Assembly (NCBI GenBank): GCA_016281435.1
Contig: JAEEIQ010000082.1
Span: 1 to 35,283 of the forward strand
Length of the DNA stretch: 35,283 nt
Direction of reading: 5' to 3'
Source: Bacteroidales bacterium
Lineage (GTDB): Bacteria; Bacteroidota; Bacteroidia; Bacteroidales; UBA932
Shown here one piece after another: positions 2,840-31,344 of this stretch. Position 1 is the first letter of the stretch; the number at the start of each line of letters is the position of its first letter. The notes below the pieces were generated by a model that had not been told where the DNA came from, did not search any database, and was given only the letters and a program-made list of their open reading frames with translations. The position numbers and the translations under genes were made by a program.

Positions 2840-2843
2840 TTGC

Positions 2844-2851
2844 TATCTTTG
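2844..2851 (+). promoter_or_regulatory. Putative -7 box upstream of the GH88-DUF2264 gene
   Basis: TATCTTTG fits TAnnTTTG. It begins five bases after the rhamnosidase stop codon and ends 18 bases before the ATG at 2870. A transcript from here would start near 2857, so the in-frame TTG at 2840 could not be the start. No clear -33 element is seen, so readthrough from the rhamnosidase gene is also possible. Confidence 0.45.
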
Positions 2852-2869
2852 AAAAAACTCATACCGATA

Positions 2870-5257: not shown

Positions 5258-5263
5258 CGACCG

Positions 5264-6973
5264 ATGCTCCGCAGGATATTGATCCTTTCCCTTGCCCTGC
5301 CCCTGCTGCTTGGCTGCCGGGAGGCAGGGCAAAGCCTTCTCGGCCCGGAGGACGTGAGTCTTTCAGGCATGGCCGGGCAAGCGGCCCGCGAATGCCTTGA
5401 AGGCCGGCTGAAGACGTTCATCTCCTCGCCGGAGAGTCCTGCCGTGGCGCTTTTCTCTCCGGAAAGCCGCTCCGACAATCCGGGTTCATGGAGGGGCGAG
5501 CATGCCGGGAAGTGGCTCTGCGCCGCTTCCACGATGTATCGGATGACGGGGGATGGCGACCTTCGCGGGATACTTTCCGCGGTGGCGGACACCCTTGTGT
5601 CCTGGCAGGGGGAGGACGGTTATCTAGGCTGCTGCCGTCCGGGGGTGCGCTTCTGCGACGTTCCCGCCGCTCCGGCCACCAATGTCGGCTGGGACCTCTG
5701 GAACTGTGCCTACATGATGAAGGGTTTGGCCGAGGCCTCGGTCGCACTCGGGCGGAAAGAACTGCTTGATGCGGCCTGCCGTCTGGCGGACCTGATGTAC
5801 AGGACCTTCGTGAAGGAAGGACGGTGCATCGCCGAAACCGGCCATCATGCCGGGCTGGCGTCCCTTGGGCTGATAGAGCCAGTCTCCGAATTATATGAAA
5901 TACTGCCTGATGCCCGCTGGAAGGCCCTTGCCGGGAAGTGCATCGAAGAATTGGACTCCGCTCCCGGACTCGGGCTCATGCAGATTCTTTCGAACGGACA
6001 GGACATTGCCCTTGCCGGGGACGGGAAGATATATGAGACCATACGCTGCCTGACGGGGCTTTCGCGCTGGGCCCGCCTTACGGGAGACCGGGACCTTCTG
6101 CGCTGCTGCCTGAACGGATGGGAGAGCATATCGGAGGACCATCTCACACCCTGCGGCGGGCCGTGGGGCGGAGTCGGCGTCCATCCGGAAGTGTTCAACA
6201 GGGATTGCTGCTTCGCTCCCGCCCAGGTCGCGGAGACCTGCTCCTCGATGGAGTGGATGAACCTGAATGCGGAACTCATGCGCAGCCTGCCTGAAGCCCG
6301 CTTCGCCGAAGAGATAGAGAAGACCTACTACAACGCCATCCTTCCGGCCCGCAAGGCCGACGGCCACCGCTGGGTCTATTATACCCGCCTGAACGGGGAC
6401 GTCACTCCCGGAAACGAGTGGAGCTGCTGCTGGTCCAGCGGGACCATGGCCCTCGGCAACATCGCCGGGATGCTCTGCGGCCGCATCGGACACGCCCTCC
6501 GGGTGAATGTCTATGCCGGCGGCGCGGTCTCGGACACCGACGGCTTCAGGATAGAAATGGACGGGGATTATGCCCATACGGGAGAGGCCCGCTTCCGCAT
6601 CTACGGAGATTCCTGCAGGAAGGAGCTTCAGTTCCGGCTTCCCGCCTGGGCCGCTTCCGTGGATGCCCGGCTTAACGGGGAAGAGGCTATGCTGCAGGAA
6701 AAGGACGGGTATCTCCGACTGGATTGCGAATGGAAGGACGGCGACGAGCTCGTCCTTCGTTTCCCTTTTGAAACCAGGGAGATACGACGCAGCTCCCGCT
6801 ATATCTGCGACGGGAAGTTCAGCGTGCGTTTCGTAAAAGAGACGCAGGAGTACTCCGCCTTTGCGCTCGGGCCGCTCGTCCTGTGCGCTGGTCCCGGGGG
6901 GCAGCTTCCTTTATGCGATTATCTCCCGTACACCGATGAACCGGAAGTGGAAATATGGACGCAGGTACAATGA
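5264..6973 (+). CDS. GH127-like (DUF1680) beta-L-arabinofuranosidase, lipoprotein
   Basis: This predicted retaining glycosidase of the DUF1680 / GH127 group releases beta-L-arabinofuranose or a related sugar. The 569-residue protein has a lipoprotein signal ending LLLGC (Cys18). The zinc-cysteine active site known from HypBA1 of Bifidobacterium is visible: Glu324 and Cys326 in AETCSS, and the pair Cys388-Cys389 in WSCCWSSG. One of these paired cysteines is the nucleophile in characterised members. An (alpha/alpha)6 barrel covers the first two thirds and beta-sandwich sequence the rest. It begins 6 nt after the GH88-DUF2264 gene and its stop overlaps the sulfatase ATG (ATGA at 6970-6973), so the three are probably translated from one mRNA. 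GH127 and GH146 cannot be separated by eye, and the substrate is uncertain. Confidence 0.85.
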   Translation: MLRRILILSLALPLLLGCREAGQSLLGPEDVSLSGMAGQAARECLEGRLKTFISSPESPAVALFSPESRSDNPGSWRGEHAGKWLCAASTMYRMTGDGDLRGILSAVADTLVSWQGEDGYLGCCRPGVRFCDVPAAPATNVGWDLWNCAYMMKGLAEASVALGRKELLDAACRLADLMYRTFVKEGRCIAETGHHAGLASLGLIEPVSELYEILPDARWKALAGKCIEELDSAPGLGLMQILSNGQDIALAGDGKIYETIRCLTGLSRWARLTGDRDLLRCCLNGWESISEDHLTPCGGPWGGVGVHPEVFNRDCCFAPAQVAETCSSMEWMNLNAELMRSLPEARFAEEIEKTYYNAILPARKADGHRWVYYTRLNGDVTPGNEWSCCWSSGTMALGNIAGMLCGRIGHALRVNVYAGGAVSDTDGFRIEMDGDYAHTGEARFRIYGDSCRKELQFRLPAWAASVDARLNGEEAMLQEKDGYLRLDCEWKDGDELVLRFPFETREIRRSSRYICDGKFSVRFVKETQEYSAFALGPLVLCAGPGGQLPLCDYLPYTDEPEVEIWTQVQ

Positions 6974-8775
6974 GACGTATGATCAAAGGCGCTCCGGCGC
7001 TTGCCTGCCTCGGGGCCGTGGCTGCATGCCAGGGCCCTGAAGCGCATCATGAGAGGCCGAATGTCGTCATCGTGATGACGGACGACCAGGGCTATGACGA
7101 TTTCTCCGCCCATGGCAATCCCGTGGTCCGGACTCCGGAGCTGGATGCCTTCAGGCAGGCCGCGGTGCGGCTTTCCGACTTCCATTCAGCCCCGATGTCC
7201 ACGGCGACGAGGGGCCAGCTGCTGACCGGCCTGGATGCAGTGCGGAACGGGGCCCTCAACGTCAGCAGCGGACGGACGACCCTGCGTGCCGGCCTGCCGA
7301 CAATGGCGGAGTTTTTCTCGGAAGCCGGGTACTCGACCGCAATCTTCGGCAAATGGCATCTCGGGGACAATTATCCCTTCCGCCCGGAAGACAGGGGTTT
7401 CGGGGAGGCCCTCTGGTATCCTTCTTCCCATATAGGGTCCGTTCCGGACTACTGGGGCAACGACTGTTTCGACGACGTGTATATCCATAACGGGGAGCAG
7501 GAACGGCAGGAAGGCTACTGCACCGATGTGTTTTTCTCGAAAGCTCGGAAGTGGATGGCGGAGCAGGCCGGTCAAGGCCGTCCGTTCTTCCTGTATCTGG
7601 CTCCCAATGCACCCCACGGACCTTTCCGTGCGCCGCAGGAGGCCGTCGAATCGGTGCGCCTGCGCCTCGGAAAGGCCGATGAACTCGGGGTGCATTCCCG
7701 CCGGATGGGCGACCTGGCGGTTTATCTCGCGATGATAGAATGCGTGGACGCGCAGTTCGGCCGGACAATGGATTTCTTGAAATCTTCAGGCCTGGAAGAC
7801 AATACCATAGTCCTTTTCATGACGGACAACGGCAGCGTGCTGGATTCCTATGTCCCGTCCCCTTCCCGCCGCGGCAAGAAGGGCCAGCTTTCCGAGGGAG
7901 GGCACAGGGTGCCGTTCTTCCTCCGCTATCCGGCAGGCATCGGGGGCGGGTGTGACGTGGACGGGCTCGCCTGCATGCAGGATGTGCTGCCGACCCTTCT
8001 GGACTTTTGCGGCATACCCTTCCGGAAAGGTCAGTTCGACGGGATGTCCCTGCGGCGCGCCCTGGAAGGACGGGGCCGCCTCCCGGGTGACAGGACCCTG
8101 TGCATCAATTTCAGCCGCATGCCCACGATGTTCGCCTATCCTTCCCCTTACGGCCAGGCTGCGGTGCGTCGCTCGGAGACGGCAGTCATGCGCGGCAGCT
8201 GGCGTCTTCTCGGCGAAGACGAGCTGTATGACATCTCGTCCGATCCGATGGAAAGGAACAACGTCATCGGAGCCAATCCCGGAATAGTCCGCAGCCTTAA
8301 AGCCGCGCGCGATGCATGGTGGAAGGACGTTGAGAAGAATGCCAACGCCTTCCAGCCTGCCCTGCTCGGCCCCGGGCCGGAGCATAAGCTCACCGCATGC
8401 GACTGGGTGGACGTATTCACCGACCAGCAGGCGCAGGTCCTGAAAGGGACGAGGCGCAACAGCTACTGGATGCTGGATGTGACGGAGCAGGGGCGCTACC
8501 GTTTCGAACTTCGCCGCTGGCCGCGTGAACTCGGCCTTCCGCTGAAAGAGGCGCCCGAAGGCGGAACGGCCTGCGACGTGTGTACGGCCAAGGTCTTCAT
8601 CTCATGCGGGGACAGGACTTTCCGGGCGAGCTCGCCCGTCGGGCTCCCGGAGAGCTTCGTCGCGTTCGAGTTCGACCTGCCTGCGGGACAGGCTGTCCTG
8701 CATACCGCCTTCGACGACGGACAGAAGGAAGCGCTTTTCGGTGCGTACTACGTTTATGCCCGGAAAGTTTTGTAA
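6970..8775 (+). CDS. S1 family sulfatase, Ser-type, lipoprotein
   Basis: This predicted sulfate ester hydrolase acts on sugar sulfates. The 601-residue protein carries a lipoprotein signal ending AVAAC (Cys20). The alkaline-phosphatase-like fold is shown by metal ligands Asp38-Asp39 (TDDQGY), FGKWHLG with Lys128 and His130, NAPHGPF, and MTDNGS later in the chain. The formylglycine motif is Ser77-Thr-Ala-Thr-Arg81-Gly, a serine-type site with Ala where Pro is usual. Maturation would need an anaerobic radical-SAM sulfatase-maturating enzyme, which is not in the window. About 150 C-terminal residues form an extra beta-rich region seen in other Bacteroidota sulfatases. I chose ATG 6970, which overlaps the upstream stop; in-frame ATGs at 6955 and 6979 are alternatives. 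Its place in the glycosidase run suggests a sulfated substrate. Confidence 0.88.
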   Translation: MRRMIKGAPALACLGAVAACQGPEAHHERPNVVIVMTDDQGYDDFSAHGNPVVRTPELDAFRQAAVRLSDFHSAPMSTATRGQLLTGLDAVRNGALNVSSGRTTLRAGLPTMAEFFSEAGYSTAIFGKWHLGDNYPFRPEDRGFGEALWYPSSHIGSVPDYWGNDCFDDVYIHNGEQERQEGYCTDVFFSKARKWMAEQAGQGRPFFLYLAPNAPHGPFRAPQEAVESVRLRLGKADELGVHSRRMGDLAVYLAMIECVDAQFGRTMDFLKSSGLEDNTIVLFMTDNGSVLDSYVPSPSRRGKKGQLSEGGHRVPFFLRYPAGIGGGCDVDGLACMQDVLPTLLDFCGIPFRKGQFDGMSLRRALEGRGRLPGDRTLCINFSRMPTMFAYPSPYGQAAVRRSETAVMRGSWRLLGEDELYDISSDPMERNNVIGANPGIVRSLKAARDAWWKDVEKNANAFQPALLGPGPEHKLTACDWVDVFTDQQAQVLKGTRRNSYWMLDVTEQGRYRFELRRWPRELGLPLKEAPEGGTACDVCTAKVFISCGDRTFRASSPVGLPESFVAFEFDLPAGQAVLHTAFDDGQKEALFGAYYVYARKVL

Positions 8776-16089: not shown

Positions 16090-17610
16090 ATGAAGCGTTT
16101 TATATTTGCACTGATGGCGACCCTTGCCATAGTGTCCTGCGGGAAGAACGAACCTGATACGAAAGAGAAGGGTTCCTCCGAGACCGAGACTTCCAATCCG
16201 TATCTGTATATCAATTACTTCGGCCGCAGCTGCATGAGTCTGTACTACCTGTGGGCGAAAGAGATTGCCTCCGACCTTTCCGCGTGGAAGAGTGAAGACG
16301 AACCCATCGCCAAGGTGAAGGCCATCCGCTATAAGGAGAACGGAAAGGATTTCGACAGGTGGACGATGATGACTGACGACTTCAACGGGTTCGAAAGCAG
16401 CGTCGCCGGCGTGTCCAAGACTTACGGCTACGACCTGCAGTTGTTCTACGGCGATGCGGAAGGCACCTACATCGTCGGCGTGGTGACTTATGTATATAAG
16501 GATTCTCCCGCTGAAAAGGCCGGATTGAAGAGGGGTGATGCCATCGTGACCGTCAACGGCCGCAGGATGACCAAGGTGACTTATTCGACTATAGCCAACA
16601 ACGAACTCAGCAATTCGGAGTCCGTCACCGTCACCCTTGCCGACGGTAAGTCATACAGCCTTACGGCCGTGGAGATGTATGAGGACCCCGTGGTCACGTA
16701 CAAGGTCCTGGATGTCGCCGGAAAGAAGGTGGGCTATCTTTTCTACAGTTCCTTCACCCTGCTTTCCTGCGACCGCCTGATCGAGGCCTGCAAGTATTTC
16801 AAGGCCGAAGGTGTCGAGGAACTTGTCATCGATCTCCGTTACAACGGCGGCGGATACGTGTTCGCGCAGCAGGTGCTTGCGTCGATGCTCGCCCCCGAGG
16901 CCAATGTGCGAGCTGGCGATGTGCTCGAGACCACGGTCTACAACGAGGCCCTTGCCCGCGAGCTCGGCAACGGGGCCACCAAGCTCAGTTTCACACATGA
17001 AATCACTGTGGACGGCAAGAAGCTTGCCTACAACACCGAGGATGCGAACATAGGCATCAAGAAGATGTACGCGATCCTCGATAAGGGCAGCGCGTCCGCT
17101 TCGGAGAGTCTGCTGACCGTCCTCATGCCTTATATCCCCATAACCATAGTCGGAGAGCAGTCCCACGGGAAGTTCTGCACCGGAATAATGTACGGGGCTG
17201 AGGAGTGGTATGACGATTACAAGGCTACCATGGCCACGACCACTTACTCGAAAGGCAAGAAGGCGGTCAAGAACTGGGGCCTGTATGTCATGATAGGACG
17301 TTTCGCCGACAGGTTCGGCAACACTCCCTGCATGCCCGACGGCTTCACTCCGGACGTCGTCGCGCACGACAACCCCAACGACGGCCACCAGCTCGGAGAT
17401 CCCGAAGAGTCCATGCTGGCCAGGGTGCTCGCCCAGATTTCCGGTGCGGGAAGCGGAACGCCCCGCTCTGCGCGTCAGGCGCGTCCCGCGTTGGAGAAAG
17501 TCGATTTCATGATGGAGAATCCGCTTTTCGGAAAGTATATCCTGACGAGCGGCGAATTCAATCAGGCCCTGCCGCATTCCTTCTTCGAGGTCCCTTCCGT
17601 GCAGGAGTAG
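16090..17610 (+). CDS. S41 family C-terminal-processing-type protease, lipoprotein
   Basis: This predicted periplasmic or envelope serine protease has 506 residues. A lipoprotein signal ends AIVSC (Cys17). A PDZ domain covers about residues 125-195 (DSPAEKAGLKRGDAIVTVNG). The S41 catalytic domain follows, with the substrate-binding loop DLRYNGGG at 249-256, the probable nucleophile Ser336 in GSASASE, and Lys361 exactly 25 residues later. This is the Ser-Lys dyad spacing of Tsp/CtpA proteases. The substrate is unknown; family members trim or degrade envelope proteins. The gene stands alone behind a tRNA terminator, and its last 49 bases overlap the minus-strand lptG-fmt gene. Confidence 0.92.
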   Translation: MKRFIFALMATLAIVSCGKNEPDTKEKGSSETETSNPYLYINYFGRSCMSLYYLWAKEIASDLSAWKSEDEPIAKVKAIRYKENGKDFDRWTMMTDDFNGFESSVAGVSKTYGYDLQLFYGDAEGTYIVGVVTYVYKDSPAEKAGLKRGDAIVTVNGRRMTKVTYSTIANNELSNSESVTVTLADGKSYSLTAVEMYEDPVVTYKVLDVAGKKVGYLFYSSFTLLSCDRLIEACKYFKAEGVEELVIDLRYNGGGYVFAQQVLASMLAPEANVRAGDVLETTVYNEALARELGNGATKLSFTHEITVDGKKLAYNTEDANIGIKKMYAILDKGSASASESLLTVLMPYIPITIVGEQSHGKFCTGIMYGAEEWYDDYKATMATTTYSKGKKAVKNWGLYVMIGRFADRFGNTPCMPDGFTPDVVAHDNPNDGHQLGDPEESMLARVLAQISGAGSGTPRSARQARPALEKVDFMMENPLFGKYILTSGEFNQALPHSFFEVPSVQE

Positions 17611-19991
17611 GACTCAGGATTGCGGAAGCCTGCGAGGAAGGCTTTCACTTCCATGCGCTTTTTCCCCGAAAGCTGGAGATCTTCGATAGCGACCGCCCCG
17701 TCGGCGGTCGCTATCGCCATATAGCTGCGACCGTCGGAAAGTACGGTGCCGGGTGCGGCCGAGGGCAGGTCGTGACGTGCTGCGCCCTTGAATATCTTGA
17801 GCTGGACAGCGCTCTCACCATCCCTGACAAGTTCCGTGAATGCCGTGGGATAGGGGCTCAGGCCGCGTATCAGGTTGACGACATTCGCCGTCGTGTCGTT
17901 CCAGTCTATGTGGCAGAGCTCACGGGTAAGCTTGGGTGCGGGCTTGAGAACCTCCGAGCCTTGGATGAAGCTGCGCTGGACCCTCGTCTCGACATTTTTC
18001 TGGATTATCCCTTCCACGGTTTCGACGACAAGGTCCGCTCCTATCCCCATCAGGGCGTCATGGACGTCGCCCGCGGTGTCTTCGGGGCCTATGATGTGCT
18101 CCTGCCGCAGGATGATGCCTCCGGTGTCGATGTCCTTGTCTATCATGAAGGTGGTGACGCCGGTCATCCTCTCCCCGTTGATTACGGCCCAGTTGATGGG
18201 CGCCGCGCCGCGGTACTGGGGCAGAAGGGCGGCGTGCAGGTTGAAGGTGCCGAGCCTGGGCATGGTCCAGACCTCTTCCGGCAGCATCCTGAAGGCCACC
18301 ACGACGAACATGTCGGCCTTCCAGGCCCTGAGCGCGGAGAGGAACTCGGGATCCTTCAGCTTGACGGGCTGGAGTACGGGTATGTCGTGCTCCACGGCAT
18401 ATTTCTTGACTGCGCTTTCGTTGAGTTTCAGGCCGCGGCCCGAGGGCTTGTCCGCCACGGTGACGACCCCGACCACCTTGTAGCCGCCCCTGACAAGGGC
18501 GTCGAGAGGAGCCACGGCGAATTCGGGAGTGCCCATGTAGACTATCCTGACTGGCTTGAACAGCCGTACTATGCGGCTCTTTATCTTGCGCCACCAGCTC
18601 TTCAGCTGGTCCGTTTCGAAGAGGGCCGAATCGTTCACCGCCTTCCACGTGAGGAACAGGCCTATCGGAGCGAGGACGTACGCGGAGATGAAGGCGCCGG
18701 TGGAGGCGGAGACGGCTCCGTCCCTGGCGAGTTTGGTCCCTGAGATGTCCACTACCCAGTACAGGACGAAGAAGAGCACGGAGATGATGGCGCTGGTGCC
18801 GAGCCCGCCCTTGCGTATGAGGGCCCCGAGGGGCGCTCCTATGAAGAACAGGATGAAGCAGGCCAGGGCCTGGGCGAATTTCTTCAGTATCTCGACGTCC
18901 GTCCTGCGGAGGAAGAAGAGGTACTCATAGACTTCGTGGCTGCAGGATGTGAGTTCGGAGGACATGCGGGAGGCGCTTCCGGAGGCCCTCCTGCAGGCGT
19001 CAATCTTGTCGTCCAGCTTCTTCCACTTGCCGAAACCTTCGTATTCGAACATCCTGGTCGCGCCTCTGTGGACGGAGGTGTCGAGCTGGGTGCGCATGGT
19101 AAAGCCGCTGGAGCGGTTCATCTGCATGTAGTGCCTGTCCCTGGCGCTGGACGTGAGTCCCCGCAGGGAGTCCTGCTCATGAAGCAGCTGGCTGATTTTC
19201 ATCGACTTGATCTGGTCCCCGAAGCGTGAGGAGTCGGATTTCTCGAAGGCGTAGTTCTTCAAGGGGATGATAAGTTCCTGCTTGGCGAAGTCGACCCTCT
19301 GCAGTTCCAGCGTGGTGTCGCGGTATTTCTTGACGTTGGTTTCCTGGTAGTTCGAACCGTTGAAGAGGGTGAAGGTCAGGTAATCCTTGTTCCTGGACAT
19401 CTTCAGCAGCGAGGAGTCGGCCATGGTCAGGGCAGTGTTCCCTTTACCGGTGGTGTGGTCATAGACCATCACGCCGTACATCATCCCCGTTTCGTCATTC
19501 TGGTCCTGGACCCGCAGGATATAGCCGTCGATGCCGTCGTAGAAGGTCCCCGAGGGGATCTTGATCTCTTCCTTTGTGCGTCCGATGTCGTCGCGCAGGG
19601 TGTAGATCTCGTTGTATGCCTTGGGCACGAGGTTGTTTCCGGCGTAGAACGCGGCTACGCTGATGAAGGCCGAAGCCACCATCAGGGGCAGCATTATGCG
19701 CCACAGGGATATTCCGGATGCCTTGATGGCCATCAGCTCCTTGTTCTCCCCGAGCGAGCCCATCGTCATCATCGACGCGAGCAGGGTCGAAAGGGGCAGG
19801 GCCAGCGGCAGGATGGTGCACGTGCCCCACATCAGGAATTCGAGTATGACCTTCATCCCCAGGCCCTTGCCGACGAGTTCGTCGATATAGAGCCAGAGGA
19901 ACTGCATCATCAGGATGAACACGACCACGAACAGGATCGCTATGAACGGTCCTATGAAGGAAGTCAGTATGAACCTGTCTAGCCGTTTCAT
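17562..19991 (-). CDS. Fusion of LptF/LptG-type LPS export permease and methionyl-tRNA formyltransferase
   Basis: One uninterrupted 809-codon frame encodes two unrelated functions. Residues 1 to about 478 are a YjgP/YjgQ (LptF/LptG) permease: three N-terminal membrane helices, a large periplasmic domain (about 130-380) and three more helices (about 385-465), as in the ABC transporter that extracts lipopolysaccharide from the inner membrane. From residue about 481 the protein is methionyl-tRNA formyltransferase: VRIVYMGTPEF, then Asn584 and His586 in FNLHAALLPQYRG, Asp622 in KDIDTGG, and a complete C-terminal tRNA-binding domain. The linker is short and basic (SRIVRLFKP). I found no ATG, GTG or TTG before the first Fmt strand that would allow separate translation; the nearest Met (486) lies inside the strand. 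It follows alaS by 15 nt. Each half is clearly recognised; the fusion is the odd point. Confidence 0.92.
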   Translation of the reverse strand: MKRLDRFILTSFIGPFIAILFVVVFILMMQFLWLYIDELVGKGLGMKVILEFLMWGTCTILPLALPLSTLLASMMTMGSLGENKELMAIKASGISLWRIMLPLMVASAFISVAAFYAGNNLVPKAYNEIYTLRDDIGRTKEEIKIPSGTFYDGIDGYILRVQDQNDETGMMYGVMVYDHTTGKGNTALTMADSSLLKMSRNKDYLTFTLFNGSNYQETNVKKYRDTTLELQRVDFAKQELIIPLKNYAFEKSDSSRFGDQIKSMKISQLLHEQDSLRGLTSSARDRHYMQMNRSSGFTMRTQLDTSVHRGATRMFEYEGFGKWKKLDDKIDACRRASGSASRMSSELTSCSHEVYEYLFFLRRTDVEILKKFAQALACFILFFIGAPLGALIRKGGLGTSAIISVLFFVLYWVVDISGTKLARDGAVSASTGAFISAYVLAPIGLFLTWKAVNDSALFETDQLKSWWRKIKSRIVRLFKPVRIVYMGTPEFAVAPLDALVRGGYKVVGVVTVADKPSGRGLKLNESAVKKYAVEHDIPVLQPVKLKDPEFLSALRAWKADMFVVVAFRMLPEEVWTMPRLGTFNLHAALLPQYRGAAPINWAVINGERMTGVTTFMIDKDIDTGGIILRQEHIIGPEDTAGDVHDALMGIGADLVVETVEGIIQKNVETRVQRSFIQGSEVLKPAPKLTRELCHIDWNDTTANVVNLIRGLSPYPTAFTELVRDGESAVQLKIFKGAARHDLPSAAPGTVLSDGRSYMAIATADGAVAIEDLQLSGKKRMEVKAFLAGFRNPESYSCTEGTSKKECGRA

Positions 19992-20006: not shown

Positions 20007-22634
20007 TTACTCTCCTTTCGCTTTCGAGATGAGGATTCCCAGCGCTTCGTCCAGCCCGTCGGGGTTCTTGCCGCCGGCGGTTGCGAGGCCGTTCTGTCCG
20101 CCGCCTCCGCCCTGGATGGCCTTTGCGGCGTCACGGATGTCGGCCGGGGCGTTGCGGCCCGCGGCGACGAGGTCGTCGGAGTACATCAGGCAGAGCTGCG
20201 GCTTGCCATCATGGGTGTATGCTGCGACCAGGGCCGCGGACTTGAGCTCCTTCTGCAGGGCGAGGGCGGCGTTGCGGAGCATGGCCGGATCGGCGTCCAT
20301 GCCGGGACGCACGGCCACGATGATCTTGATGCCGTTGACTTCTTCGGCGCGGGAGGCAAGTTCCCTGGCGAAGTCCGCGGCCTTCTGTTTCGCGAATTCT
20401 TCAGCCTGCTTCTTGAAGGTGGCGTTGTCTTCGATCATCTTGCGTATGGCACCTGCGAGGTCGGGAACGTTGTTGAACAGGCCCCTGGCTGTCTTCAGCA
20501 GCTCCTGCATCCCGTAAACGGCCTGCTCGGCTTCTGCTCCGGTGACGGCCTCGATGCGCCTGATTCCGGCGGCGATGGCGGCTTCGCTCAGGATCTTGAA
20601 GTAGCCGATGTTGCCGGTCGCGGAAGTGTGGCAGCCGCCGCAGAGTTCCACGCTGGGGCCGAAGCGGACGACGCGTACGGTGTCGCCGTATTTCTCCCCG
20701 AACAGGGCGATGGCGCCCATCGAGCGGGCCTCGTCCATGGTGGCGTCACGCTTTTCTTCCCTTGCGATATTGCTGCGGATCAGCTCGTTGACGCGGCTTT
20801 CGACCTTGCGCAGGGTCTCGTCGTCGAGTTTCTCGAAGTGTGAGAAGTCGAAGCGGAAATACTTGTCGCAGACGAAGGAGCCCTTCTGCTCGACATGGGT
20901 CCCTACGATCTCGCGCAGGGCCTGGTCGAGAAGGTGCGTGCAGCTGTGGTTGGCCTCGATGCGGGCCCTCCTGGCAGCGTCCACTTCGAGGCGGAACGCC
21001 CCTTCGCAGTTGTTGGGAAGCTTTTCCGCGATGTGGACCGTGAGGTTGTTCTCCTTCACGGTGTTGAGGATGCGTACGGTCTGGCCGTCGGCCGAGGTGA
21101 TTGTGCCGGTGTCGCCGACTTCGCCGCCCATCTCCCCGTAGAAGGGAGTGCGGTCGAAGACCAGCTGGAGCATCTCCTTGTTCTTCTGGACCACGGTGCG
21201 GCTCCGCAGGAGCAGGGCGCCTTCCGTGACGGTTTCGTCGTAGCCCGTGAAGACGCTCTCTTCACCCTCGTGCCATACGGTCCAGTCGCCGAATTCGTTG
21301 GCGGTGGCGTTGCGGGCGCGGTCCTTCTGCTTGGCGAGTTCGGCCTGGAAGCCTTCGAGGTCCACCTTGTAGCCGTTCTCGGTCGCGATGAGTTCGGTGA
21401 GGTCGATGGGGAAGCCGTAGGTGTCGTAGAGCTTGAAGGCGTCCGCTCCGGGGATGACCTTGCTTTCTTCAGCCGCTGCCATGCAGTCGTCCATCAGGCG
21501 TATTCCCCTGTCGAGGGTGCGCAGGAAGGCCATCTCTTCTTCACGTATGACGTTTTCAATGAGTTTCTGCTGGGCCTTGATCTCGGGATAGGCTTCGCCC
21601 ATGTCGTCCACGAGCTGGCCCACGAGCCTGCAGAGGAAGGGCTCCGACAGGCCGAGGAAGGTGTAGCCGTAACGGACGGCGCGGCGCAGGATCCTGCGGA
21701 TCACGTATCCGGCCTTGACGTTGGAGGGCAGCTGGCCGTCGGCTATGGAGAAGCTGATGGCGCGTATGTGGTCGGCGATGACCCTCATCGCGACGTCGGT
21801 CTCCGCGCTTTCGCCGTAGCGGTGGCCGGAGATTTCCCCGATCTTGGAGAGCATGCCAGTGAAGACGTCGGAGTCATAGTTGCTGTTCTTGCCCTGGAGC
21901 ACGGAGCAGAGGCGCTCGAAGCCCATTCCGGTGTCTATGTTCTTGGCGGGAAGGGGTTCGAGATGGCCGTCGGCCATCCTCTGGAACTGCATGAAGACGA
22001 GGTTCCAGATTTCGATGACGTGCGGGTCGGACTTGTTGACGAGGTCGCGGCCAAGGACGCCCGAGGCCTTTTCTTCCGGGGTGCGAATGTCGATGTGGAT
22101 CTCGCTGCAGGGACCGCAGGGGCCGGTGTCGCCCATTTCCCAGAAATTGTCGTGCTTGTTGCCGAGCACGATGTGGTCTTCGGGCAGGTGGCGGAGCCAT
22201 GCCTTCTTGGCCTCTTCGTCCATCGGGGTCTCGTCCGATCCTTCGAAGACGGTGGCGTAGAGTATGTTCTTGTCGATCTTGTATACTTCGGTGAGCAGCT
22301 CCCATGCCCAGTCTATGGCTTCGTCCTTGAAATAGTCGCCGAAACTCCAGTTGCCGAGCATCTCGAACATCGTGTGGTGGTACGTGTCGTGGCCCACTTC
22401 TTCGAGGTCGTTGTGCTTTCCGCTGACCCTCAGGCATTTCTGTGAGTCGGCCGCCCTCAGCGAGCGGGCTTTCGCGTTGCCGAGGAATATGTCCTTGAAC
22501 TGGTTCATCCCGGCGTTGGTGAACATCAGCGTCGGGTCGTTCTTAACTACCATGGGTGCCGAGGGGACCACGGTGTGGCCCTTCGAGGCGAAGAAATCGA
22601 GAAACTGCTTGCGAATCTCCTTTGAGGTCATCAT
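20007..22634 (-). CDS. alaS: Alanyl-tRNA synthetase
   Basis: This enzyme charges tRNA-Ala in the cytoplasm. The 875-residue protein has the class II core near its N-terminus ([17 protein letters not shown]), the editing domain with zinc ligands His563 and His567 (HSCTH) and Cys665 and His669 (CGGCH), and a C-terminal DHHA1-type domain ending in a Gly-rich GGGGGQNG segment. The frame is open to 22760, but ATG 22634 (or the next codon, 22631) starts at the normal [14 protein letters not shown], and a promoter lies between. The lptG-fmt gene follows 15 nt downstream, so both are probably one transcript. Confidence 0.97.
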
Positions 22635-22657
22635 ACTTTGAATATTATAAAGAACCA

Positions 22658-22687
22658 CAAATTTAGTTGTTTTTTCCGATAGTTCAA
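22658..22687 (-). promoter_or_regulatory. Promoter of alaS and lptG-fmt
   Basis: On the minus strand, TTG (22687-22685) and TAAATTTG (22665-22658) are 19 nt apart, a clean -33/-7 pair. The -7 box ends 23 bases before the alaS ATG, which supports the start at 22634 over the longer open frame. Confidence 0.75.
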
Positions 22688-22698
22688 TAGAAACGGAG

Positions 22699-22827
22699 GG
22701 CCGGAACGGTCTGTCCGCAGGGACCGTGCCACCCGCGGCACGATAGCGGGGGGACCGCAAGCGGCTCGCCGCGCAGTGGTGGGGTCGAGCGGAGCGAGAC
22801 GTCCCTGCGGGCAGAGCCGTTCCGGCC
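22699..22827 (+). repeat. 129-nt palindromic element with a 26-bp outer stem
   Basis: The left arm 22699-22724 pairs with the right arm 22801-22827 through 26 base pairs, with one bulged G (22816) and one G-T wobble. The outer arm begins GGCCGGAACGG. Inside are smaller hairpins, such as CGTGCC/GGCACG (22725-22730 with 22737-22742) and GCGG/CCGC (22761-22764 with 22769-22772). The element lies between two divergent promoters, so a terminator role is not needed there, and only four T residues follow. It may be a dispersed REP- or MITE-like repeat or a structured RNA; the strand is arbitrary. No protein is encoded. Confidence 0.8.
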
Positions 22828-22907: not shown

Positions 22908-23939
22908 ATGGCTAAGGCTCCGAAATTCAAGAAGTACCGGTACAATCCCGATACCCTCATGTACGAGGTCGAAGAGGTTCCGCGGTGGGTTCCTTATCTG
23001 AGGAACTCGCTGATGGCTCTCGGCGCGATCGCGATGGGGGCGCTGTATTTCTGGCTCTACACTTCCGTACTCGGCCTGGACCTCCCGAAGACCGCCGCCT
23101 TGAAAAAGAAAAATGCGGAATGGTCTTCGAAGATGGACATCCTCAACCGCCAGCTGGACCTCTACGAGGAAACTCTGAGCGGCATCGAAGACAGGGACGA
23201 CCATGTGTACAGGTCCATTTTCGGGCTGAACGAGATTCCGGACGAAGTCAAGAAGGCCGGATTCGGGGGTGTGAACCGTTATTCGTGGCTTGACGAACTC
23301 GGCGGGGCGCCCCAGCTCAAGGCCACGCTGATGCGCATGGACGTGCTCACGAAGAGGACCTACCTGCAGAGCAAGGCCCTTGACGAGGTCGGACTCATTT
23401 CCAGGACGGCCGGTGACATGGTCTCGTGCGTCCCCGCCGTGCCCCCGATAAACCCGGCAAAGGGCTCATATCACATATCCAGTTACTTCGGATACAGGAC
23501 GGATCCGGTTTTCGGCGGGAGGCGCTTCCACGAGGGGCTTGATTTCGCCACCGACATCGGGAACCCGGTGTACTGTACCGGCGACGGGGTCGTGGAAAAG
23601 GTCCGGTATCAGTTCTTCGGCTATGGCAACGAGGTCCTGATCGACCATGGTTTCGGGTACAAGACGCGCTATGCGCACCTTAATTCCGTGGACGTGGCCG
23701 TCGGGATGCGGCTCAAGCGCGGGGACAAGATCGGGGAGGTCGGCAAGACCGGAAAATCGACGGGCCCGCACCTGCATTATGAAGTTATCTACAAGGGGAG
23801 CCAGGTGAATCCGATGTCCTATCTCGACCTGTCGATGTCCGTCGAGGAATATCAGGCCATGGTCAGCAAGGGCAAGGACTCGGGCGTCAGCCGCAAGAAG
23901 GTCCCTTCGCACAATGAACTGCTCAGGAGGAGGCGCTGA
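22908..23939 (+). CDS. Membrane-anchored M23 family metallopeptidase (first of two)
   Basis: This predicted peptidoglycan endopeptidase or divisome/elongasome-linked LytM protein has 343 residues. A basic cytoplasmic N-terminus precedes one membrane helix at about residues 35-55. A helical, coiled-coil-prone region (about 62-100) connects to the M23 domain from about residue 185. Zinc and catalytic residues are intact: His208 and Asp212 in FHEGLD, His257 in YAHL, and His288 and His290 in PHLHYEV, so it should be active. The C-terminus is very basic. The next M23 gene starts 2 nt after its stop. The gene diverges from alaS across the palindromic element. Confidence 0.92.
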   Translation: MAKAPKFKKYRYNPDTLMYEVEEVPRWVPYLRNSLMALGAIAMGALYFWLYTSVLGLDLPKTAALKKKNAEWSSKMDILNRQLDLYEETLSGIEDRDDHVYRSIFGLNEIPDEVKKAGFGGVNRYSWLDELGGAPQLKATLMRMDVLTKRTYLQSKALDEVGLISRTAGDMVSCVPAVPPINPAKGSYHISSYFGYRTDPVFGGRRFHEGLDFATDIGNPVYCTGDGVVEKVRYQFFGYGNEVLIDHGFGYKTRYAHLNSVDVAVGMRLKRGDKIGEVGKTGKSTGPHLHYEVIYKGSQVNPMSYLDLSMSVEEYQAMVSKGKDSGVSRKKVPSHNELLRRRR

Positions 23940-23941
23940 CG

Positions 23942-24892
23942 ATGGCAAAGGGCTACGAATTCGACAGGAGCAGTTTCAGCTTCAGGAAGGCGACGGTTTC
24001 CGCATGGAAGATCGTCCTTTCGGCGCTGAAATACATCGCGGTGACATTCTCGCTGACTGTTGTGGCGTATCTGCTTTTCGCCCTTGTCGTCAGCACGGAT
24101 ACGGAAAGGCGCCTCAGGCGCGAGAACCGCATGTACGAGAAGGCCTATCCAGGGCTCCAGCCGAAGGAGCAGCTGCTCGGGGACGTGATTTCCGGCCTGC
24201 AGCTCAAGGACAACGAGATTTACGGGCAGGTCTTCCATACCGACGCTCCCAACGTGGACCCCATCAGCTCCCTGGACTTCCTCTACGGCAGCGACACCAT
24301 TCCCGACGTCGAGATCAGCCGCTACGCGACACGGAAGGCCATGGCGTTGGAGCTGAAGGCGGCGAGGGTCGATTCCTCCTTCCGGAGGATCTTCTACCTC
24401 ATCGCGAGGGAAGGCTTCGTGGCCCCTCCTATGGAGCTTCCGCTGAAAGGCATCTCCTATCCGCAGGTCGGGGCCTCCAAGGGAATGAGGCTCAATCCTT
24501 TCTACAAGGCGTACGTGGAGCATAACGGGATGGATTTCATCGTCCCCCAGGGGACGCCTGTCTATGCCGCGGCAGACGGCGAGGTCGTCAGCGTGGTACA
24601 CTCTACGAAGGGTCTCGGAAACATGGTCCAGATAGCCCACAGGGGCGGGTTCAAGACCAATTACGCCCACCTTGCGGACATCGTCGTGTCGAAGGGCCAG
24701 AAGATTTCCAAGGGGAAGAAGATAGGCTCCGTCGGGATGTCCGGCAACACCTTCGCCCCCCATCTGCATTATGAAGTCATGCGGGATTCCGTTTACCTGG
24801 ACCCGATAGGATACATATTCGCCTCGACCACCCCGGACGAATATTCGAATATGCTTTTCATGGCCGTCAATACCGTTCAATCTATGGACTGA
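23942..24892 (+). CDS. Membrane-anchored M23 family metallopeptidase (second of two)
   Basis: This 316-residue protein has the same layout as its upstream neighbour: a short basic N-terminus, one membrane helix at about 30-50, a charged helical linker and a C-terminal M23 domain from about residue 170. The metal and catalytic residues are present: His194 and Asp198 in EHNGMD, His243 in YAHL, and His274 and His276 in PHLHYEV. A strong Shine-Dalgarno-like AGGAGGAGG (23925-23933) inside the upstream gene lies 8 nt before the ATG. The pair probably arose by duplication but has diverged. The MerR gene follows 5 nt downstream. Confidence 0.92.
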   Translation: MAKGYEFDRSSFSFRKATVSAWKIVLSALKYIAVTFSLTVVAYLLFALVVSTDTERRLRRENRMYEKAYPGLQPKEQLLGDVISGLQLKDNEIYGQVFHTDAPNVDPISSLDFLYGSDTIPDVEISRYATRKAMALELKAARVDSSFRRIFYLIAREGFVAPPMELPLKGISYPQVGASKGMRLNPFYKAYVEHNGMDFIVPQGTPVYAAADGEVVSVVHSTKGLGNMVQIAHRGGFKTNYAHLADIVVSKGQKISKGKKIGSVGMSGNTFAPHLHYEVMRDSVYLDPIGYIFASTTPDEYSNMLFMAVNTVQSMD

Positions 24893-27598: not shown

Positions 27599-28018
27599 AT
27601 GGCGCGCAATCAGGATATCACCCATTCCGGGAAGATAGTTGACATCACTCCCGAATTCATCACGGTCGAGATTCTCTCCGAGTCCGCGTGCGCAAGCTGC
27701 CATGCAGCGGGCCTCTGCGGCATCTCCGAGGCCAAGACCAAGGCGGTCCAGGTCCCTGCGACCCTGGACGGCTGGCAGATCGGGGAGGAAGTAGATGTCT
27801 GCCTGCGGCGCTCCATGGGCCACAAGGCCGTGTGGATCGCATATGTGATACCTCTGCTCGTGGTCATGGCCGTACTCCTGGGCCTTCTGGCAGCAGGGGT
27901 GGCGGAAGTGTCCGCCGGACTTGCGGCCATTGCGGCCGCCGCCCTGTACTATCTTGTGGTGTATCTCTTCAGGGATGCGCTCAGAAAAGAATATTCATTT
28001 TATATCAAGAAGAAATGA
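27599..28018 (+). CDS. RseC/MucC-like membrane protein
   Basis: This 139-residue inner-membrane protein of the SoxR-reducing / RseC family has an N-terminal cytoplasmic part with the cysteine cluster Cys31, Cys34 and Cys40 (CASCHAAGLC), followed by two membrane helices at about 79-99 and 103-122. Relatives sit beside rnf genes in many bacteria and are thought to take part in redox delivery or maturation of the complex. Its stop overlaps the rnfB start (ATGA at 28015-28018), which supports a functional tie with Rnf. Confidence 0.88.
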   Translation: MARNQDITHSGKIVDITPEFITVEILSESACASCHAAGLCGISEAKTKAVQVPATLDGWQIGEEVDVCLRRSMGHKAVWIAYVIPLLVVMAVLLGLLAAGVAEVSAGLAAIAAAALYYLVVYLFRDALRKEYSFYIKKK

Positions 28019-28965
28019 CAACGACGATTATCTGGACCATTGTGATTCTCGCCGCGCTCGGACTTGTACTGTCCGTCGTTCTTTTCCTCATCGCGAAGAA
28101 ATTCAAGGTTGAGGAAGATCCGAGGATCGACGAGGTTGAGAAAGTGATGCCGGGTGCCAACTGCGGCGGCTGCGGATTCGCGGGCTGCCGCGCCTTTGCG
28201 GACAATGCCGTGAAGGCTGCCAGCCTTGACGGGATTTACTGCCCTGTCGGAGGAAACGAAGTCATGGGCAAGGTTGCGGCCATCCTTGGCTACGAGGTGA
28301 AGGAAAAAGCCCCTCAGGTGGCCGTGGTCCGCTGCAACGGGACCTGCCAGGCCCGTCCCCGCATCAATGAGTACGACGGGGTGAAATCCTGCAAGGTCAA
28401 GGCCGCCCTCTACAGCGGGGACACGGCGTGCGCCTTCGGGTGCCTCGGCTGCGGCGACTGTGTGGCCGCGTGCCAGTTCGGGGCCCTTTCGATGGACCCT
28501 GAAACTGGGCTTCCCGTGGTTGACGAGGAGAAGTGCACCGCCTGCGGCGCCTGCGCGAAAGCCTGCCCGAAGAAGCTCATCGAGCTCCGCAACAAGGGCC
28601 CGCGCGGCATGCGTGAGTTCGTCTCCTGCCGCAACCAGGACAAGGGACCTGCCGCGAAGAAGGCCTGTGCGAACGCCTGCATAGGATGCGGCATCTGCGC
28701 CAAGACCTGCACCCACGATGCGATCACCCTCGAGAACAATGTCGCGTATATCGATTTCGCGAAGTGCAAGCTTTGCCGCGAATGCGAAGCCGTCTGCCCG
28801 ACCGGAGCCATCCACGGGGTCGGTTTCCCCAAGGAGCTTGACAAGGAGGCCGTAAAGGCCCGCATAGCCGAAAGGGCCCGCAAGGCCAAGGAAGCCGCGG
28901 CAGCGAAGGCAGCCGAAGAAGCTGCTGCCAAAACAGAGATAAAGAAGGAGGCCGTCAATGAGTAA
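28015..28965 (+). CDS. rnfB: Rnf electron transport complex subunit B
   Basis: This iron-sulfur subunit accepts electrons from reduced ferredoxin. The 316-residue protein has one N-terminal membrane helix (about 5-27), a Fes domain with Cys50, Cys53, Cys58 and Cys76, and four CxxCxxCxxxC motifs (CLGCGDCVAAC, CTACGACAKAC, CIGCGICAKTC, CKLCRECEAVC), enough for up to five clusters in all. The last 35 residues are Ala/Lys/Glu-rich and low in complexity. I chose the ATG overlapping the rseC stop because it gives the normal membrane anchor; the frame is open further upstream. It overlaps rnfC by 8 nt. Confidence 0.96.
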   Translation: MTTTIIWTIVILAALGLVLSVVLFLIAKKFKVEEDPRIDEVEKVMPGANCGGCGFAGCRAFADNAVKAASLDGIYCPVGGNEVMGKVAAILGYEVKEKAPQVAVVRCNGTCQARPRINEYDGVKSCKVKAALYSGDTACAFGCLGCGDCVAACQFGALSMDPETGLPVVDEEKCTACGACAKACPKKLIELRNKGPRGMREFVSCRNQDKGPAAKKACANACIGCGICAKTCTHDAITLENNVAYIDFAKCKLCRECEAVCPTGAIHGVGFPKELDKEAVKARIAERARKAKEAAAAKAAEEAAAKTEIKKEAVNE

Positions 28966-30370
28966 GATTACATTTTCCATAGGTGGCGTCCATCCGGACG
29001 ACGCCAAATCCGCCCGCGGCCGCGCCACGGAGGTCCTTCCCCTTCCCGAGACCGTCTATGTGTCGATGGCCCAGCACCTCGGCGCTCCCGCCAAGCCCGT
29101 TGTCGCCGTCGGTGACAAGGTCAAGGCCGGCCAGGTCATAGCCGAACCCGGCGGATTCATTTCCGCTTTCGTACATTCTCCCGTGTCCGGGACAGTCAAG
29201 GCGATAGCCCCCCGCAAGGACCTCGCCGGCAACTGGATGACCCATGTCGAAATCGCCGTGGAAGGCGACGAGTGGGCCGAAGGGATAGACCTTTCCGATA
29301 CCCTCGTGAAGGAGATTCCGGAAGACAAGGCGTTCATCCTCGGACGTATCAAGGAGTGCGGTGTCGTCGGTCTCGGCGGCGCGACCTTCCCGACGCATGT
29401 CAAGCTCAGCCCTCCTCCGGGAAAGGTGGCCGAGTGCCTCATAATCAACGGAACCGAGTGCGAACCGTACCTGACCTGCGACTTCCGCCTCATGCTTGAA
29501 AGGCCCGCGGAGATAGTAGTGGGCGCTGCCATCATGCAGAAAGTCCTCGGTGGCTGCCGCTGCGTCATCGGCGTGGAAGAGAACAAGCCCGAGGCCATAG
29601 AAGCGCTCTCAAAGGCTGTCCGCGACCTGGGATATCCCGGCATCAGCGTGGTCTCGCTGAAGAAGCGTTATCCGCAGGGCGGAGAGAAGCAGCTCATCGA
29701 CGCGGTCATGCACCGCCAGGTGCGCTCGGGCGGCCTGCCCATCGACGTGGGCGCCGTCGTCCAGAACGTCGCGACTTCCGTTGCGGTCTATGAGGCCGTG
29801 CAGAAGAACAAGCCCCTCGTGACCAACACCATGACCATAACGGGCGACTGCATCCCCGTCGAAAGGCAGCACAACTACCTCTTCCGCATCGGCATGCCCC
29901 TGAGCTTCATAGCGCAGCAGGCCGGCGGAGTGCCCGAGGACGCCGCGAAGATAATAAGCGGCGGTCCCATGATGGGCAAGGCCGTGAGCAATCTCGACGC
30001 ATGCACCGTCAAGGGTTCGTCCTCGATCCTCTACCTGTCCGAAGCGGCTACCCGCCGCAAGGCCGAAGGAAGCTGCATACGCTGCGGAAGGTGCGCGGAT
30101 GCCTGTCCCATGGGTCTGGAGCCTTTCCTGCTGAACCGCCTTTACAAGGCCGGCGACGTCGATGGCCTCGAAGCCGCCTCCGCACAGGATTGCATAGAAT
30201 GCGGCTGCTGCCTGTACAGCTGCCCCGCCTACATCCCCCTGCTCGACAACGTCCGTCAGGCCAAGGGGCAGGTCATGGGTGTCATCAGGGCCCGTGCCGC
30301 TGCGGCGAAGGCTGCCGCTGAAGCTGCGAAGGCCGCCGAGGCTGCCAAGAACGAAACTGATAAAAAATAG
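28958..30370 (+). CDS. rnfC: Rnf electron transport complex subunit C
   Basis: This subunit carries the NADH/FMN site, where electrons reach NAD+. In its 470 residues are an N-terminal barrel-sandwich region, the nucleotide-binding segment GLGGATFPTHVKL, INGTECEPYL, an SLBB region, and two C-terminal 4Fe-4S motifs, CIRCGRCADACP and CIECGCCLYSCP. The last 25 residues are Ala/Lys-rich, like the tail of RnfB. An AAGGAGG ribosome-binding site (28945-28951) inside rnfB lies 6 nt before the ATG. Confidence 0.96.
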   Translation: MSKITFSIGGVHPDDAKSARGRATEVLPLPETVYVSMAQHLGAPAKPVVAVGDKVKAGQVIAEPGGFISAFVHSPVSGTVKAIAPRKDLAGNWMTHVEIAVEGDEWAEGIDLSDTLVKEIPEDKAFILGRIKECGVVGLGGATFPTHVKLSPPPGKVAECLIINGTECEPYLTCDFRLMLERPAEIVVGAAIMQKVLGGCRCVIGVEENKPEAIEALSKAVRDLGYPGISVVSLKKRYPQGGEKQLIDAVMHRQVRSGGLPIDVGAVVQNVATSVAVYEAVQKNKPLVTNTMTITGDCIPVERQHNYLFRIGMPLSFIAQQAGGVPEDAAKIISGGPMMGKAVSNLDACTVKGSSSILYLSEAATRRKAEGSCIRCGRCADACPMGLEPFLLNRLYKAGDVDGLEAASAQDCIECGCCLYSCPAYIPLLDNVRQAKGQVMGVIRARAAAAKAAAEAAKAAEAAKNETDKK

Positions 30371-30381
30371 GAAATTCAGAT

Positions 30382-31344
30382 ATGGGAAAAATGATTGTTT
30401 CACCGTCCCCGCACATTCACGCGAAGGTCTCGACCAACGCGCTGATGAGGGACGTCGTGATCGCCCTCCTGCCCGCAATCGTGGTTTCGGTCCTTTTCTA
30501 CGGATGGTCGGAACTGCTGGTGCTGGCCGTCAGCGCGCTTTCCTGCGTGCTGCTTGAGTGGGCGATTGCCAAATGGCTTTTCCGGGACTGCAAGGTGGCC
30601 AACCTTAGTTCCGCCCTCGTGACGGGCCTGCTTCTCGCGATGAACCTGCCTTCGACCACTCCCTGGTGGGTCGTCGTGATCGGCGCGCTGTTCGCGATCG
30701 GCGTCGCGAAGATGTCCTTCGGCGGCCTCGGACAGAACGTGTTCAACCCGGCGATCGCGGGACGTGTGTTCCTGCTGGTGTCGTTCCCGGCCTATATGAC
30801 TGACTGGACGATCCCCCAGGGCTTCATCCATTCGACGGACGCCGTCTCCGGAGCCACCCTCCTGGGCCGTTATGCCGAAGGCGGGATGGATGCCGTCGCG
30901 GGCACCGACCTCCTCCGCACGCTGTTCCTGAACATAGGAGGCTCCGCGGGTGAGATTTCAGCCATCGCGCTGCTGGCAGGCTTCGTGTACCTGCTCTGCC
31001 GCAGGGTCGTCAAGCCCTGGATTCCCCTCTCCATCTTCGTGACCGTGGCCCTGATCTCCGGAATCTTCAACCTGGCCGATCCCGCCCAGTACACCGGCCC
31101 GCTCTTCAACCTGCTGACCGGCGGCATGATACTCGGCGCCTGCTTCATGGCGACCGACTACGTGACCTCCCCGATGAGCACCTTGGGCGGTGTGATCTAC
31201 GGCTTCGGAATAGGCTTCATCGTGATGATGATCCGTTATTTCGGATCCTATCCCGAGGGAATGTCCTTCGCGATACTTCTCATGAACATGGCAGTGCCCC
31301 TGCTCAACAGGGCTTTCCATCAGCATAAATACGGGAGGGCATAG
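30382..31344 (+). CDS. rnfD: Rnf electron transport complex subunit D
   Basis: This 320-residue integral membrane subunit has eight to ten hydrophobic helices. The covalent FMN site is visible as SGAT at residues 156-159, with Thr159 the predicted flavin acceptor. The FGGLGQNVFNPAIAGRVF segment is characteristic of the RnfD/NqrB family. It is 11 nt after rnfC and 2 nt before rnfG. Confidence 0.96.
   Translation: MGKMIVSPSPHIHAKVSTNALMRDVVIALLPAIVVSVLFYGWSELLVLAVSALSCVLLEWAIAKWLFRDCKVANLSSALVTGLLLAMNLPSTTPWWVVVIGALFAIGVAKMSFGGLGQNVFNPAIAGRVFLLVSFPAYMTDWTIPQGFIHSTDAVSGATLLGRYAEGGMDAVAGTDLLRTLFLNIGGSAGEISAIALLAGFVYLLCRRVVKPWIPLSIFVTVALISGIFNLADPAQYTGPLFNLLTGGMILGACFMATDYVTSPMSTLGGVIYGFGIGFIVMMIRYFGSYPEGMSFAILLMNMAVPLLNRAFHQHKYGRA

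Follow-up and report, generated by a model that had tools for sequence, protein, structure and literature searches.

A methionyl-tRNA formyltransferase joined in frame to an LptF-like permease in Bacteroidales

What is an enzyme of translation initiation doing at the end of a lipopolysaccharide (LPS) export permease? Methionyl-tRNA formyltransferase (Fmt) is a soluble enzyme that makes the formylated initiator tRNA for bacterial initiation. The question is raised by a 35,283-nucleotide (nt) stretch of DNA from a Bacteroidales bacterium (contig JAEEIQ010000082.1 of assembly GCA_016281435.1, hereafter the window), in which positions 17562–19991 of the minus strand hold a single intact frame of 809 codons plus stop, with an ATG start, encoding in turn an LptF-like permease, a basic linker of 29 residues and a complete Fmt. 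We think it likely that both parts are ordinary, the Fmt being tethered to the LptF, and that frame changes in an operon with overlapping genes gave rise to the fusion.

The joined gene and its two halves

Pfam places LptF_LptG (the best of two stretches at residues 6–281), Formyl_trans_N (482–657) and Formyl_trans_C (687–790) in the 809-residue protein, and finds no domain beyond the permease and formyltransferase ones. A preliminary description of the window had claimed one frame running from permease into Fmt, a short basic linker, a stop in the neighbouring frame at the junction and intact catalytic residues Asn584, His586 and Asp622, and all of this was borne out: the same architecture recurs in the 120 best-ranked relatives, the linker carries 7 Lys or Arg against 3 Asp or Glu, a TAG is present in the +1 frame, and the catalytic residues are recovered as follows.

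The Fmt part (17565–18548, minus strand; residues 482–809) has a Rossmann-type N domain followed by a C-terminal domain (PF02911), and its score against the TIGR00460 fmt equivalog, 228.5 bits, passes the cut-off of 201.5. Asn584 and His586 (codons 584–586 at 18234–18242), Asp622 (18126–18128) and Arg519 (18435–18437), all read from the minus strand, align with N108, H110, D146 and R42 of E. coli Fmt and are invariant across 77 aligned fusions. We take the first three to be catalytic and Arg519 to be the counterpart of the tRNA-recognition loop residue Arg42, as the literature is generally understood.

The permease part (18636–19991, minus strand; residues 1–452) belongs to the LptF/LptG family, with a PF03739 score of 230.6 bits (gathering threshold 27.9). 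It has six predicted transmembrane helices, the last at residues 435–452, with a periplasmic β-jellyroll at about 150–243 that contains a helical insertion. Glu85 of the coupling helix is invariant in the aligned fusions and aligns to the NSEL of LptG. We call this half LptF-like only, since it misses the LptF cut-off, although its LptF score exceeds its LptG score.

The linker (18549–18635, minus strand; residues 453–481) follows the sixth helix and includes an amphipathic helix at about 460–478. From the helix count, the charge and established knowledge, the C-terminus of the permease is predicted to lie in the cytosol, so that Fmt would be tethered to the membrane. The accessible parts of PMC12738788 and PMC6164715 do not state where the LptF/LptG C-terminus lies. 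The distance from the last transmembrane motif to the Fmt part is 39–41 residues in 59 of the 67 rows in which the motif was found (of 83 rows). The pooled ratio of nonsynonymous to synonymous substitution rates (dN/dS), from 16 close pairs, is 0.114 for the linker, 0.039 for Fmt and 0.033 for the last transmembrane part; the first of these values indicates that the linker evolves as protein, under purifying selection. The top 50 Foldseek matches to a structure model of the fusion are formyltransferase-fold proteins only, and the permease half was matched in a second look.

Conservation, copy number and origin

A search of 5.8 billion proteins, in which 7998 candidates were scored, gave 4340 relatives at E ≤ 0.001. 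The best 120 of these all carry the three domains at 68–93% identity; the few that are named at all are called only “methionyl-tRNA formyltransferase”, a name that hides the permease. In a scan of named genomes, the best 80 of at least 549 relatives are fusions without exception over about 795–809 query residues, their best segments being 63–72% identical. Both sets are top matches to a fusion query and thus show conservation rather than frequency. The 80 loci come from uncultured Bacteroidales or Bacteroidia assemblies and one Prevotellaceae, and include Candidatus Cryptobacteroides avistercoris and C. faecigallinarum (loci L009 and L048). One metagenome-assembled genome (isolate SUG854) holds two distinct fusion loci, L037 and L050, which are either two copies or the result of a mixed assembly. 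The plasmid collection contained no record covering 80% of the query.

Twenty-eight genomes were taken from the 80 loci for copy counts, which therefore refer to relatives of the source genome. In each of them a single fmt passes the cut-off, and its frame is 801–871 amino acids long; a separate fmt, a possibility that the preliminary description had entertained, was not found over the cut-off in any of the 28, the weaker matches covering part of the model with 66 bits or less. Likewise, no second fmt over the cut-off was found in 44 genomes of one GTDB family with a fused-length frame. All 28 genomes encode peptide deformylase and 27 encode LptB over the cut-off. The second lptF/lptG gene that had also been envisaged is there as a separate permease frame in 25. 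In L083, a second, unfused permease (1483–3713, minus strand) lies directly 3′ of a gene whose translation reads as tgt. This permease is LptG-like (180 versus 151 bits), the fused one LptF-like (144 versus 103), and neither reaches an equivalog cut-off.

To judge frequency, samples were drawn at three levels. The family sample comprised 139 genomes from the GTDB family to which G019 belongs, G019 being the genome that carries L048; we take this family to be UBA932. With fused or unfused state judged by frame length, 125 genomes have an fmt over the cut-off, 44 of them in a fused-length frame (796–856 amino acids) and 81 in a single-gene frame (316–392). G481, with a 684-residue frame at a contig edge and a score below the cut-off, was counted neither way. 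Twenty of the 44 fused-length regions were examined, and all 20 hold both halves. Beyond the family, matches were ranked, and a match to both halves is expected to rank first. Among the matches listed, both halves share one frame in four of 393 genomes of the order (G015, G019, G036 and G154, all of them also in the family sample) and in one of 296 of the phylum, the centre genome itself. On the matches listed, a fusion widespread in the order or phylum is rejected.

Gene order in unfused kin suggests how the fusion arose. In the window, alaS, encoding alanine-tRNA ligase (20007–22760, minus strand; TIGR00344, 886.7 bits), lies 15 nt upstream of the fusion on the same strand; its family match begins at residue 48, and the listed TTG start is probably too far upstream. 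The same gene is directly upstream in 74 of 74 and in 18 of 19 fused loci with more than 1.5 kb of flank, and directly upstream of the unfused permease–fmt pair in 32 of 36 loci. These 36 come from the 40 of 81 unfused regions that were examined, mostly on longer contigs. In all 36 the permease lies upstream of fmt, no more than 35 nt away in 35 pairs, 27 of which overlap; no pair is in frame. Given this close or overlapping, out-of-frame arrangement, most unfused pairs would need just a small frame change near the permease stop to fuse. Adjacency is not universal in the family: in L101 the permease is 1.2 kb from the unfused fmt, and in L095, L100, L108 and L109 no permease lies in the flank. 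These four were left out of the trees and pair counts; L101, which stays in the pair counts, and L107 were left out of the trees for their long branches.

On the tree built from the two halves together, with 41 fused and 34 unfused rows (75 in all), the trait requires four changes, with a bootstrap range of 3–5, three of them forced by well-supported branches. Taken separately, the permease tree has four changes (three forced by starred branches) and the Fmt tree five (two forced). A single fused clade is rejected, with a log-likelihood 760 lower and p-AU of 0.0004 in the approximately unbiased test; the constrained group was defined by the trait, at a time when an earlier tree had already been seen. 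The source gene sits in an all-fused clade of 23 rows. Linker sequences differ between the fused clades, and fission would need a new stop and a new start. These two points, together with the unfused state of the rest of the order, favour separate gains, and the fusion has probably arisen repeatedly in the family, more than a single accident would account for.

Explanations for the predicted tether

The reading that we prefer is as follows. One mRNA, probably from an alaS–lptF/fmt operon, would give one inner-membrane protein, which would stay uncleaved. The N-terminal part would serve the LPS exporter as its LptF-like half, together with LptB and a separately encoded LptG-like permease. The C-terminal part, a catalytically complete Fmt kept at the cytosolic face by a short helix that is basic and amphipathic, would formylate initiator Met-tRNA as the only Fmt of the cell. 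A small frame change in an overlapping or abutting out-of-frame pair would have removed the lptF stop, probably three or four times in the family, and the fusion would then have been retained, both halves being single-copy and needed. Judging from sequence, both halves are presumably active, and the cell presumably tolerates the tether without needing it, since a frame change in an overlapping pair suffices and most genomes of the family sample are unfused. A real benefit, such as equal dosage or local formylation, is possible in view of the recurrence, the selection on the linker and the loss of internal starts.

It is tempting to go further and propose that the tether itself has a function, so that Fmt placed by the LPS exporter couples formylation and initiation to envelope export or to the state of the membrane, or promotes formylation close to ribosomes bound at the membrane. 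In its favour, this uncommon joining has probably come about several times and has lasted across deep divergence, purifying selection acts on the linker, whose length is mostly constant in the clade of the source gene, and internal starts have been lost repeatedly. However, two genes that lie so close together, and mostly overlap, are likely to fuse by accident more than once, the linkers differ in sequence between fused clades, 81 of the 125 family genomes keep an unfused-length fmt frame, and the fusion protein has no further Pfam domain. We regard a functional tether as rather unlikely, and give the same small chance to the broader proposal that convergent fusion has moved initiator-tRNA formylation to the inner membrane and that the tether couples initiation, or formylation at membrane-associated ribosomes, to envelope export. 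The cell-level reading of the preliminary description divides along this line: a membrane-tethered Fmt is indeed predicted, and the suggested coupling to envelope synthesis is conjectural. Overlapping-gene ancestry gives a sufficient, non-functional origin.

Several points weigh against an ordinary Fmt tethered to an ordinary LptF. Support for one polypeptide comes from sequence data. The permease half falls short of the LptF equivalog TIGR04407 (144.2 bits, cut-off 230) and of the LptG equivalog TIGR04408 (103.3, cut-off 240). The structure model has a predicted template modelling score (pTM) of 0.44, and the relative placement of the two halves is not predicted. Three of the 28 fusion genomes, metagenome-assembled and perhaps incomplete, yielded no second permease. 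The fusion carries the only fmt over the cut-off in the relatives sampled, and the source genome may contain a second fmt. Change counts alone cannot separate fusion from fission. Finally, within 12 codons before Fmt an in-frame ATG is found in 57 of 102 fused loci, and an ATG, GTG or TTG in 73 (L081 and L082, which share genomes with L063 and L004, are probably duplicates within the 102 rows). The 20-nt leader of the ATG at −7 has an adenine fraction of 0.52 (n = 44), close to the 0.46 of unfused fmt starts (n = 33), and some kin may also make free Fmt, given such leaders and the A-favouring initiation in the phylum.

These last observations bear on an explanation in which free Fmt is released by internal initiation, or by proteolysis of the linker, and the fusion is mainly an expression device. 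Of the 83 rows in the clade alignment, 44 have Met at −7 and nine have it at −5, 52 overall. The adenine fraction before ATG(−7) exceeds that of the fusion’s own start (0.36, n = 78), of other internal ATGs (0.24, n = 1855) and of any codon (0.24); at −7 in rows without Met it is 0.37 (n = 38). According to the accessible parts of PMC6847099, Bacteroidota initiate without a Shine-Dalgarno sequence, aided by adenines at −3 and −6.

Against such release, the codon at −7 of the source gene is GTA, and the 29 codons upstream of its Fmt part include no start-type codon. The preliminary description, in which no ATG, GTG or TTG precedes the first Fmt strand, is correct for these 29 codons and fails one codon further up, at a GTG at −30 (18636–18638, minus strand), which stands at the end of the permease; no other start-type codon occurs in frame over the 45 codons that precede R482, where the Fmt part begins. 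The next in-frame ATG, M486, is already inside Fmt strand 1. The A-rich leader stems in part from the Lys-rich linker, AAA making up 0.37 of the linker's Lys codons in rows with Met and 0.38 in rows without. Parsimony makes Met(−7) ancestral, with about 12 changes away from it, and its change rate of 0.77 per unit branch length, versus 1.53 for other residues at the site, shows it to be at most weakly held. A strongly kept start at −7 is unsupported by these rates; most simply, this Met is left over from the old Fmt start and is either weakly kept or drifting.

Met(−7) has been lost in separate lineages, namely L003, L018, L019, L026, L030, L048, L057, L060, L080 and most of the subclade of the source gene, in which L007 retains it. 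Among these, L019, L030 and L060 have another start-type codon nearby, and L003, L018, L026, L048, L057 and L080 lack one over the nearest 12 codons. Such recurrent loss suggests that free Fmt is not needed in the lineage of the source gene, and we consider release as the main role of the arrangement unlikely.

That the Fmt-like part now formylates an LPS sugar, in the manner of the formyltransferase part of ArnA, would explain the link to LPS export, and is very improbable: TIGR00460 is passed while the ArnA equivalog NF005998 (147 bits against 777) and the PRK06988 model stay far under their cut-offs, no fmt other than the fused gene passes the cut-off in any of the 28 genomes, all of which retain deformylase, unfused fmt occupies the same place in kin, and the fusion preserves both the tRNA-loop Arg and the C-terminal domain. 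Synteny, the single copy and the model scores all disfavour this reading. A sequencing or assembly frame error is ruled out, a local indel being excluded by the same architecture in 120 relatives and 80 genome loci, and the fusion, for which the preliminary description had named a frame error at the junction as the refuting result, is genuine.

An ordinary Fmt tethered to an ordinary LptF would matter in several ways. In this group of uncultured gut Bacteroidales, the one Fmt copy that was detected has a membrane transporter as its predicted anchor, a state that evolution probably reached several times, and this raises the question of whether formylation works from a fixed place and at the copy number of a transporter. 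Fused and unfused sisters in one family are a natural experiment. They also show a route traceable on the tree, in which overlapping operon genes fuse by a frame change and the old start is lost later. No description of a permease–Fmt fusion was found in open-licence PMC papers, and none is treated in the accessible parts of PMC4378268, PMC6529658, PMC2823697 and PMC11528492.

Neighbouring genes and comparison with known systems

Downstream, a gene for an S41-type peptidase-like protein (16090–17610, plus strand) is convergent with the fusion gene, and the 3′ ends of the two overlap by 49 nt. On the other side, two tandem genes that read as M23-type peptidases from their translations (22908–24892, plus strand) diverge from alaS; 39 of 60 family loci, some of which lack the flank, have a homologue of the first gene upstream on the opposite strand. 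Further away, genes for an α-L-rhamnosidase, a DUF2264 protein, a GH127 protein and a sulfatase are clustered, close or overlapping, at 218–8775 (plus strand), and Rnf-type electron transport genes (a Fer4 protein, RnfC-like and RnfD-like) lie at 27688–31344 (plus strand), 3′ of a dnaB-like gene.

The fusion can be set beside four known arrangements. It shares with E. coli Fmt (1FMT/2FMT; TIGR00460) both domains, the catalytic Asn/His/Asp and the tRNA-loop Arg and, in relatives, a single copy over the cut-off alongside deformylase in the same genomes. Unlike that enzyme, its N-terminus is joined to a membrane permease, with no start codon of its own in the source gene. ArnA is a formyltransferase superfamily member likewise fused to another enzyme and linked to lipid A; in contrast to the fusion, which scores far under the ArnA cut-off, it pairs a sugar formyltransferase with a UDP-glucuronic acid oxidase. 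With the LptF/LptG of LptB2FG(C) (PF03739; 5x5y, 6mhu) the permease half has in common the family match, the transmembrane plan with a β-jellyroll and the conserved coupling-helix Glu, and LptB and a second permease are present in most of the 28 related genomes; it differs in a longer periplasmic part, in the cytosolic Fmt predicted at its C-terminus and in missing the equivalog cut-offs. The unfused alaS–lptF–fmt loci of the same GTDB family match it in order, strand and homology of both halves; in them permease and Fmt are instead encoded by two genes, mostly overlapping and in different frames.

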